64,000 nucleotides of DNA from Actinomycetes bacterium (GTDB lineage Bacteria; Planctomycetota; Phycisphaerae; JAACET01): NCBI GenBank assembly GCA_030614915.1, contig JAUXAG010000002.1, positions 1-64,000 of the forward strand, read 5' to 3'. Of the stretch, positions 43,174-45,126 are shown piece after piece. A program made the position numbers and the translations under genes. The notes below the pieces were generated by a model. It saw only the letters and a program-made list of their open reading frames with translations, did not search any database and was not told the DNA's origin. Numbering within the stretch: the first letter of the stretch is position 1; every line of letters starts with the position of its first letter.

Positions 43174-43752
43174 ATGGCCCCAGAGAATCTTGACAAGTAT
43201 GAGTTGCTCATCTGTGTAACCGGCGGCATCGCCGCCTACAAGGTTGGCACTGTTGTCTCGAGCCTAGTGCAGAAGAAGGCCGCCGTCACCGTAGCTATGA
43301 CCGACAGCGCCACCAGGCTCATCGGCCCGCCCACCTTTCGTGCTCTGACCGGTCGAGCTGTGCACACCGACTTATGGGCTCAGGAGATTTCCGCCGACGT
43401 CGAGCACATCAGCCTCACCGACCGGGCCGACCTGGTCGTAGTTGCCCCAGCCACCGCCAACATCCTGGCCAAGATGGCCGCCGGAATCGCCGACGATTTG
43501 GTCTGTACCACCCTGCTTGCCGTCGAGGGGCCCGTCCTGCTCGCACCGGCCATGAATGTCCGCATGTGGTCAAACCCCGCCACCGTGCACAACGTAGAGA
43601 TATTGAAGCAGCGCGGGCATATACTCGTCGGCCCGGAATCAGGATGGCAGGCCTGCGGCCACGTCGGCATCGGCCGAATGGCCGAGCCCCAGACCATCGT
43701 CCGAGCCATCGAAGAAATACTCGCCCAACGAAAACCAAAAGCCAGCACCTGA
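43174..43752 (+). CDS. coaC: Phosphopantothenoylcysteine decarboxylase (CoaC part)
   Basis: A 192-residue flavoprotein: V-T-G-G-I-A-A-Y-K near 15-23, P-A-T-A-N near 92-96, and P-A-M-N-V-R-M-W near 125-132, the substrate clamp. It decarboxylates phosphopantothenoylcysteine in coenzyme A synthesis. The CoaB ligase half usually fused to it is absent, and the next gene is unrelated, so CoaB must be encoded elsewhere or the enzyme is of the split type. Confidence 0.88.
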   Translation: MAPENLDKYELLICVTGGIAAYKVGTVVSSLVQKKAAVTVAMTDSATRLIGPPTFRALTGRAVHTDLWAQEISADVEHISLTDRADLVVVAPATANILAKMAAGIADDLVCTTLLAVEGPVLLAPAMNVRMWSNPATVHNVEILKQRGHILVGPESGWQACGHVGIGRMAEPQTIVRAIEEILAQRKPKAST

Positions 43753-43785: not shown

Positions 43786-45126
43786 ATGCGCAAGGTCTTG
43801 GTATCTGCTGGCGGGCTCGGTTACCTTCCCATAGCTCCCGGCACCTGGGGTTCCTTGGCAGGCGTGGGGATATTCCTGCTGGCCGGGCTAAGCGCTTGGC
43901 CGTTGGTAACTGCTCTGATTTGCCTGGCCGGCGTGCTGCTCTTTTCTATCCTGAACGTAGCTCTGGGCCCCTGGGCCTGCTCGCATTATGCCTCTAAAGA
44001 CCCCTCGCCCGTGGTTATTGACGAGGTGGCCGGCTATCTCCTGGCCGTACTCTTCTTGCCCATCGACGGGGTGAACCTCTACTACTCCGCTGCTTGCGCT
44101 TTTATAGTCTTCCGTATCTTTGACATCATAAAGCCTGCTCCGGCTCGCCGCCTCGAGCGTCTGCCCGGGGGCTGGGGAATCCTGGCCGACGATCTAATGT
44201 GCGGGCTCTATGCCAATCTCCTCTGCCAGTGCCTCATGCGTGCGGTTGTACCTGTCTTACTTGGCACCGGCCCAGCCGACATCTTAGCCATACCCCAGGC
44301 CGGCCTGCTCGGCTTCATACAGGGCATCGCCGAGTTCCTGCCCATCTCCAGCTCGGGCCACTTGGCCCTGACCCAGAAATTCTTGAAGCTCTCTCCCGAC
44401 AGCCCCCAGATGCTGCTGTTCGATTTGGCCACTCACGTGGCGACCTTAGCCGCGGTACTGGTGGTTTTCGCACATCCTTTCGGGCGAATGCTGCGATCGC
44501 TTCTGCGGGCTCCGACCAAGTACGGCTTGTCGAGCAGGCTCGTCAAAGAATCCCCCAGCGTACGCCTAGTGTGGCTCACTTTCCTGGCCTGTATTCCGAC
44601 GGCCTTAGTCTATATCATCTTTTCCAAGCGTCTGGAGGCCTTCTTCGATAAGCCCCTGGCCATCGCCGGCTCTTTTCTGGCCACCGGCTTGATTATCCTT
44701 CTAGCCGAGCGCCTCGGACATCCCTGTCGGGGCCTGCGCAGCTTTGGCATCCACGCCGCCCTGATCATTGGCTTGGCCCAGGGGCTGGCCCTTATGCCGG
44801 GTCTTAGCCGATCCGGCCTGACCATCTGCGCAGCTCTGCTTTGCGGTATCAAGCGAGGCTGGGCCGGAAGGTTTTCCTTTCTGATCGCCGCACCTGCCAT
44901 CCTGGCCGGCTTCGCCCTGCACTTATTCAAGGTCATCAACCAAACCAGCCTGAGTTCGTGTCCGTGGCTGGCCATCCTTCTCGGCTCGCTCACCGCCTTT
45001 GCCGTGGGCCTCTGGGCCCTGCGCGTACTGCTCAAAACCCTTCACCGGGCCCACCTGAGTTACTTCACCATCTACCTCTGGATAGTTGGCCCAGCCATCA
45101 TCCTCATCCATCTGCTTTTTCAGTGA
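43786..45126 (+). CDS. Fusion of PgpA and UppP lipid phosphatases
   Basis: A 446-residue membrane protein. Residues 1-155 are phosphatidylglycerophosphatase A (G-G-L-G-Y-L-P-I-A-P-G-T-W-G-S near 8-22 and V-I-D-E-V-A-G-Y near 78-85). Residues about 165-446 are undecaprenyl-diphosphatase UppP/BacA (G-I-A-E-F-L-P-I-S-S-S-G-H-L near 178-191, M-P-G-L-S-R-S-G near 326-333), with multiple membrane helices. The first half removes phosphate from phosphatidylglycerophosphate; the second recycles the carrier lipid of peptidoglycan synthesis. The junction is continuous, with no stop or frameshift. Confidence 0.9.
   Translation: MRKVLVSAGGLGYLPIAPGTWGSLAGVGIFLLAGLSAWPLVTALICLAGVLLFSILNVALGPWACSHYASKDPSPVVIDEVAGYLLAVLFLPIDGVNLYYSAACAFIVFRIFDIIKPAPARRLERLPGGWGILADDLMCGLYANLLCQCLMRAVVPVLLGTGPADILAIPQAGLLGFIQGIAEFLPISSSGHLALTQKFLKLSPDSPQMLLFDLATHVATLAAVLVVFAHPFGRMLRSLLRAPTKYGLSSRLVKESPSVRLVWLTFLACIPTALVYIIFSKRLEAFFDKPLAIAGSFLATGLIILLAERLGHPCRGLRSFGIHAALIIGLAQGLALMPGLSRSGLTICAALLCGIKRGWAGRFSFLIAAPAILAGFALHLFKVINQTSLSSCPWLAILLGSLTAFAVGLWALRVLLKTLHRAHLSYFTIYLWIVGPAIILIHLLFQ

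Follow-up and report, generated by a model that had tools for sequence, protein, structure and literature searches.

The open reading frame described here raises two questions: whether PgpA, an enzyme of phosphatidylglycerol synthesis, and BacA (UppP), which recycles the undecaprenyl lipid carrier, have really become a single protein, and what such a union would be for. The window in which it lies is a 64,000-nucleotide stretch of DNA from a member of the class Phycisphaerae (Planctomycetota), comprising positions 1 to 64,000 of contig JAUXAG010000002.1 in assembly GCA_030614915.1. A preliminary description of the window had read the gene as a PgpA-UppP fusion with both sets of active-site motifs intact, linking two lipid-phosphate reactions that normally lie apart. 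The fusion is well supported as a genomic fact; its biochemistry is predicted. The features referred to below are collected in Table 1.

Domains, motifs and the junction

Firstly, the reading of the gene as a fusion is borne out: one stop-free frame contains two nearly complete Pfam domains. The PgpA half covers positions 2-140 of the 141 in profile PF04608 (127.1 bits, cut-off 28) and the BacA half positions 3-255 of the 257 in PF02673 (224.1 bits, cut-off 33.4). The PAP2 domain, PF01569, is absent from the Pfam families matched by the protein. The same two families were found with NCBIfam, where every match fell under the curated equivalog cut-offs. The BacA half scored 174.4 bits against the 217.5 of TIGR00753, and the PgpA half lay far below NF008288 (62.4 bits against 226).

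The PgpA motifs were defined from an alignment of eight sequences, ie the window protein, E. coli PgpA and six members of the class. Twenty-one columns are invariant, and the invariant charged residues are R110 and K116 together with six acidic residues, D72, D79, E80, D113, D135 and D136, all identical in E. coli PgpA. In an alignment with E. coli BacA, the second half retains the equivalents of Glu21, Ser27, His30 and Arg174 as Glu183, Ser189, His192 and Arg342. Glu21, Ser27 and Arg174 are essential in E. coli BacA, according to the accessible part of PMC4641660. Glu17, which the accessible part of PMC5852022 describes as conserved and possibly calcium-binding, has been lost; its place is taken by Gln179, and Gln occurs there in all seven fused proteins aligned. 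The preliminary statement that both motif sets are intact is therefore right for the essential BacA residues and the acidic PgpA residues, but not for BacA Glu17.

The junction is real. The same uninterrupted protein, with an open junction, is encoded in G001 (89% identity) and G002 (73%), which represent two further species of the genus, and the fusion is thus present in all three genomes of the genus. A contig search with the fused protein gave 26 loci. The PgpA half was matched in only one of these, DAOVKO010000136.1 (L033), over residues 1-446, and the other 25 matches start at residue 147 or later. In length and match coordinates DAOVKO010000136.1 equals G001:C47; it belongs to the same assembly as G001 and is therefore no third witness of the junction. 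Its public title, Actinomycetes bacterium, looks mistaken for a genome of the window's genus. Between the window gene and G001, the linker (residues 151-173) has a pS of 0.42 and a pN of 0.12, a coding pattern, and dN/dS is 0.17 in the PgpA half, 0.21 in the linker and 0.13 in the BacA half; in the pairs with G002 synonymous sites are nearly saturated, which makes them less informative for dN/dS. Both halves are under purifying selection. By eye, no Shine-Dalgarno-like sequence precedes the in-frame ATG at 44236 in the linker, so a separate start for BacA is not suggested there. An assembly or sequencing error that mimics the fusion, such as a missed stop or frameshift at residues 155-165, the weak point named in the preliminary description, is conceivable because relatives carry tandem pairs one stop apart and a single error could imitate a fusion, but it was rejected as extremely improbable: the junction is open in both other species of the genus and in 20 further genomes, and the substitutions across it are of coding type.

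Table 1. Coordinates of the fusion gene and its parts in the window, and genomes of the class that carry the fusion.
Feature	Position	Strand	Basis
pgpA-bacA(uppP) fusion gene, 446 aa	43786..45126	+	Pfam and ORF (ATG start, TGA end); G001 and G002 share the architecture
PgpA domain, residues 5-150	43798..44235	+	Pfam PF04608, 127 bits
PgpA motif, residues 72-83 (DPSPVVIDEVAG)	43999..44034	+	D72, V77, D79, E80, G83 as in E. coli PgpA
PgpA motif, residues 109-119 (FRIFDIIKPAP)	44110..44142	+	F109, R110, D113, K116, P119 as in E. coli PgpA
PgpA motif, residues 131-140 (GILADDLMCG)	44176..44205	+	G131, D135, D136, G140 as in E. coli PgpA
Junction/linker, residues 151-173	44236..44304	+	Stop-free, coding-type substitutions; open in G001 and G002
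BacA/UppP domain, residues 174-435	44305..45090	+	Pfam PF02673, 224 bits; model matches 5oon
BacA1 motif, residues 179-192 (QGIAEFLPISSSGH)	44320..44361	+	Q179 = Glu17, E183 = Glu21, S189 = Ser27, H192 = His30 of E. coli
BacA2 motif, residues 338-346 (PGLSRSGLT)	44797..44823	+	R342 = Arg174 of E. coli
Fused, SSSGH-type or variant BacA: G000, G001, G002, G018, G027, G062, G068, G139, G151, G163, G197, G209, G249, G270, G285, G288, G294, G303, G329, G332, G362, G380
Fused, another BacA type: G241			Architecture also by Pfam

The assembly from which the window comes measures 2.56 Mb and is 95.8% complete. Searching it gave one PgpA match and one BacA match, both of them the fusion gene, and no second copy of either was found in this 95.8% of the genome. 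Other contigs hold two PAP2-family matches and five matches to CDP-alcohol phosphotransferase, the family of PgsA. By Pfam, the upstream neighbours of the fusion are a chorismate mutase/prephenate dehydratase, triosephosphate isomerase, YicC, guanylate kinase and a lone flavoprotein domain, and the downstream neighbours are a rhomboid protein and UvrA; cdsA-like or pgsA-like genes are absent before the fusion among these neighbours in the window. The gene directly upstream (43174-43752) has the Flavoprotein domain alone and is CoaC-like by eye, its ORF being without a CoaB domain.

Distribution and history of the fusion

A survey of the architecture and its taxonomic range had been proposed with the preliminary description. 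It places the intact fusion, ie both domains covered without a stop, in at least 23 of 397 genomes of the class Phycisphaerae. Three genomes were not counted among the 23: in G297 and G214 the junction reads open but the contig stops within the gene, and G252 has only a piece of the BacA half. Among the matches listed, the fusion occurs in every genome of f1 (3/3), f13 (5/5), f25 (1/1) and f26 (1/1). By hand count it occurs in at least 4 of 27 genomes of f16, at least 7 of 42 of f20, at least 1 of 11 of f22 and at least 1 of 23 of f19. In at least 14 further class genomes the match runs across both domains with one or two stops on the way, ie the genes are tandem in one frame; in G009 a single TAA lies between the two ORFs, with a Met two codons later. 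The phylum sample consisted of 392 genomes, 41 from the class (including that of the window) and 351 from outside it. No intact fusion appears in these 351 among the matches listed, where one should be found, although one that registered as a pair of weak matches could escape. Tandem pairs do occur outside the class, in G485 and G426 (f57) and in G449 (f71).

The arrangement of the two genes was also compared in 101 genomes, among which the window's genus apart there was no relative closer than the same class. Both genes were found in 55 of them: fused in seven, tandem in the order pgpA-bacA in 13, adjacent in another orientation in two, and apart in 33, on different contigs in 28 of these. 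Chance would rarely make two given genes neighbours; the counts are not independent, being linked through shared ancestry. The view that the two reactions normally lie apart stands to the extent that 33 of the 55 genomes keep the genes apart, but the genes are often neighbours in the class, and PAP2 enzymes join both reactions.

Many relatives gave a PgpA match only. BacA was found in none of 26 such genomes chosen for closer search, 15 of f16, nine of f20 and two of f10 (G034, G074 and G145 are examples). Twenty-three of the 26 are at least 90% complete, and the same BacA model was positive in 10 of 14 control genomes. The families f16, f20 and f10 can therefore dispense with BacA, which PAP2 enzymes presumably replace there.

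In the BacA trees, the BacA of the window belongs to an SSSGH-type clade. Its other members are four f14 rows with BacA by itself, three f8 rows (two in tandem, one with BacA by itself) and a clade of 23 rows from f13, f16, f20, f22, f25 and f26, of which 19 are fused and four tandem. The four tandem pairs, all of f20 (G178, G217, G335 and G338), lie inside this fused clade (support 100/97), which argues that the fusion was probably split again, once. In the PgpA tree the window's genus stands outside a 30-row clade that holds the other SSSGH-type fusions (support 99), and in the two-domain tree the f8 tandems separate the genus of the window from the main clade of fusions (98/96 and 97/95). 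Constrained trees were compared by p-AU, the values being weakened because the groups were named after the first tree had been seen: forcing the 22 SSSGH-type fused rows together gave 0.004. With BacA alone the value was 0.116 when the four split f20 pairs were allowed inside and 0.329 when f8 was inside too, and with PgpA alone it was 0.096 for a group made of the window's genus and the whole 30-row clade, f8, tandem and single rows among them. With both domains joined, a grouping of the window with the main clade that leaves f8 outside was disfavoured (0.029); neither domain by itself rejects a comparable grouping.

G241 is different. It has a classical SSTGH-type BacA, and its BacA and PgpA both fall among the rows of its own family, f19, amid tandem relatives; by this placement it is a separate fusion. 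A single origin of all the fusions was rejected for G241 on the same two grounds. The case is weaker for the window's lineage, whose position may also reflect one old fusion followed by a split in f8 and separation in f14. Taken together, the trees indicate at least two fusions, probably three, and probably one reversal. Certain rows were omitted: the BacA tree left out 19 of the 25 loci titled as Bacillota-type, together with BacA fragments shorter than 150 aa, and the later BacA tree and the two-domain tree left out the classical-type rows G055, G104, G264 and G359. Because rows were chosen by high score or as neighbours, the trees give no count of how many times tandem pairs arose.

Some changes of partner and motif were seen along the way. 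In G055 (L032), G359 (L114) and G264 (L115) a PgpA of the 30-row clade is followed by a classical SSTGH-type BacA, which suggests a change of BacA partner at a kept place. In G241 (L112), a cytidylyltransferase (PF01148, CdsA family) and a CDP-alcohol phosphotransferase (PF01066, PgsA family) precede the fusion, and in G076 (L014) and G088 (L026), also of f19, a PF01066 gene lies upstream of a tandem pgpA-bacA. The CdsA- and PgsA-family steps precede the PgpA step in phosphatidylglycerol synthesis; these f19 genomes have what looks like a phosphatidylglycerol synthesis cluster that ends in BacA. Separately, SSSGH is replaced by SSEGH in the fused proteins of G380 (L076) and G329 (L078) and by SSDGH in that of G285 (L077), and among these proteins PS or PA replaces the PG before SRS. 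The BacA half of these proteins may have changed its substrate or be degrading.

Topology, function and the reason for fusing

The solved structures found by sequence were E. coli BacA entries only. The BacA half of the predicted model matches the BacA crystal structure 5oon (E 2.3e-10, TM 0.80 by target length) at moderate model confidence; from residue 161 onwards, averages over ten residues lie between 59 and 85. The PgpA half was modelled poorly, pLDDT being mostly under 50, and the alignment used by the predictor had two PgpA sequences only. Helices were taken from the model with their ends adjusted by eye, and the Lys and Arg residues of each loop were summed by hand. With the N-terminus inside, the PgpA loops have seven such residues inside and none outside, and the C-terminus is then outside; the poor model and the helix ends set by eye make the helix count of this half tentative. 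With its start outside, the BacA half has nine inside (six of them in loop 231-256) and two outside. The BacA crystal structure paper, in its accessible part, argues that both termini are periplasmic (PMC5852022), and with a C-out PgpA the two halves would then fit end to end. A beta-lactamase study, as told in the same part of that paper, placed the N-terminus of E. coli BacA in the cytoplasm (PMC5852022), a position that a C-out PgpA would not allow; the orientation of the fusion is thus a best inference. In that orientation the PgpA motifs would be cytoplasmic, and the BacA site would look towards the periplasm.

The explanation we consider probable is a bifunctional integral membrane protein with independent sites, derived from an end-to-end fusion of the neighbours pgpA and bacA through loss of the stop between them. 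Its PgpA half, with about five membrane helices, the N-terminus inside and the C-terminus outside, would dephosphorylate phosphatidylglycerol phosphate to phosphatidylglycerol on the cytoplasmic side. A short linker in the periplasm would join it to the BacA half, in which a site open to the periplasm would convert undecaprenyl pyrophosphate to undecaprenyl phosphate, to be reused for cell-wall and surface-polysaccharide synthesis. The two sites would occupy opposite faces of the membrane and probably act independently; with one inside and the other outside, direct hand-over of substrate is improbable. Fusion would secure co-expression, 1:1 stoichiometry and placement, and a partner with five helices would deliver the outside N-terminus of BacA. 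Co-expression, stoichiometry and delivery of that N-terminus would be sufficient reasons for fusing, and neutral fixation is possible. Against this explanation stand the sub-equivalog scores of both halves, the change of Glu17 to Gln, the clashing beta-lactamase topology and the poor PgpA model, and the two PAP2-family matches in the same genome could carry one or both reactions. The absence of BacA from all 26 chosen genomes of f16, f20 and f10, relatives that can do without it, also counts against it.

There is a substantial chance, somewhat short of even, that the stop was simply lost between in-frame operon neighbours and the fusion tolerated without benefit. Stop loss could join the in-frame pairs seen in at least 14 class genomes, where one or two stops lie between the genes; fission probably occurs too, and retention is patchy in f16, f20 and f22. 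However, the fusion is kept in all three genomes of the window's genus and in all five of f13, and dN/dS against G001 is low across both halves.

A coupled, two-faced enzyme seems unlikely. Here the supply of phosphatidylglycerol would have to keep in balance with the recycling of the lipid carrier, or share a location with it where the envelope grows, and the halves would influence each other. That fusion took place at least twice and probably three times within a single class speaks for it, as does the position of the G241 fusion behind cdsA-like (PF01148) and pgsA-like (PF01066) genes. The 30 PgpA rows of the clade with support 99 point the same way, 26 having an SSSGH-type (or variant) BacA, three (G055, G359 and G264) an SSTGH-type and one none, although the 26 of 30 come from a biased sample, fetched by high score or neighbourhood; the pairing in those three looks as if it outlived a change of partner. 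Other observations do not fit coupling. The two genes are apart in 33 of 55 genomes (28 with them on different contigs), the intact fusion is found in at least 4 of 27 f16 and at least 7 of 42 f20 genomes, 24 chosen genomes of these two families are without any BacA, the fused clade includes four f20 genomes whose ORFs are separate, and opposite-facing sites would make direct hand-over improbable. The wider proposal, that selection keeps phosphatidylglycerol synthesis and lipid-carrier recycling physically coupled in Phycisphaerae, with a two-faced enzyme balancing phospholipid and cell-wall growth, draws on the neighbourhood of pgpA with two types of BacA, once behind cdsA-/pgsA-like genes, and on repeated fusion; we hold it to be equally doubtful.

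More improbable still is that one half is inactive or changed in substrate and that the fusion serves a single reaction. Both halves score below the equivalog cut-offs, the altered BacA motifs of the fused G380, G329 and G285 show that change does happen in fused proteins, the genome has two PAP2 matches, and relatives survive without BacA. In the window's lineage, however, the key residues are intact, dN/dS is low for both halves, and no further PgpA or BacA was found in the 95.8% complete genome.

If both halves of the predicted bifunctional protein are active, a single gene would control one step in phospholipid synthesis and another in the lipid carrier cycle of the cell wall, in bacteria with a little-known envelope biology. 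Genomes with repeated fusion, tandem pairs, a probable reversal and the loss of BacA form a natural series for asking whether coupling brings an advantage.

Comparison with known systems

No recognisable description of a PgpA-BacA fusion was found in the open-access full-text literature, within the part of the matching papers that was covered; the combination of PF04608 and PF02673 may well stand unremarked in InterPro or other architecture databases. A close arrangement is the tandem pgpA-bacA of Phycisphaerae and of f57 and f71, which has the same families in the same order, often in the same frame. The tandem pairs have a stop codon between the genes and give two proteins, whereas the window gene has none.

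E. coli PgpA (pgpA b0418, PF04608) shares its whole domain with the first half, including the 21 invariant columns and their six acidic residues, at 30% identity. In the window protein, however, PgpA is fused to BacA, whereas in E. coli pgpA stands behind ribD-ribE-nusB-thiL. E. coli BacA/UppP (bacA b3057, PF02673; 5oon/6cb2) likewise shares its whole domain, the equivalents of Glu21, Ser27 and Arg174 and the predicted fold with the second half. The differences are the identity of 32%, the change of Glu17 to Gln, SSSGH in place of SSTGH, and the placement of BacA after PgpA within a single chain.

The same pair of reactions is served by PAP2 phosphatases. According to the accessible parts of the respective papers, E. 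coli PgpB acts on phosphatidylglycerol phosphate and undecaprenyl pyrophosphate (PMC7413402), and H. pylori HupA (PMC6748449) and A. aeolicus LpxE (PMC6581854) likewise use both substrates. As described there, each of these enzymes has one broad-specificity PAP2 site, whereas the window protein combines two families with separate predicted sites and has no PAP2 match. Set beside what those parts report, the fusion would be a different solution for the same pair of reactions.
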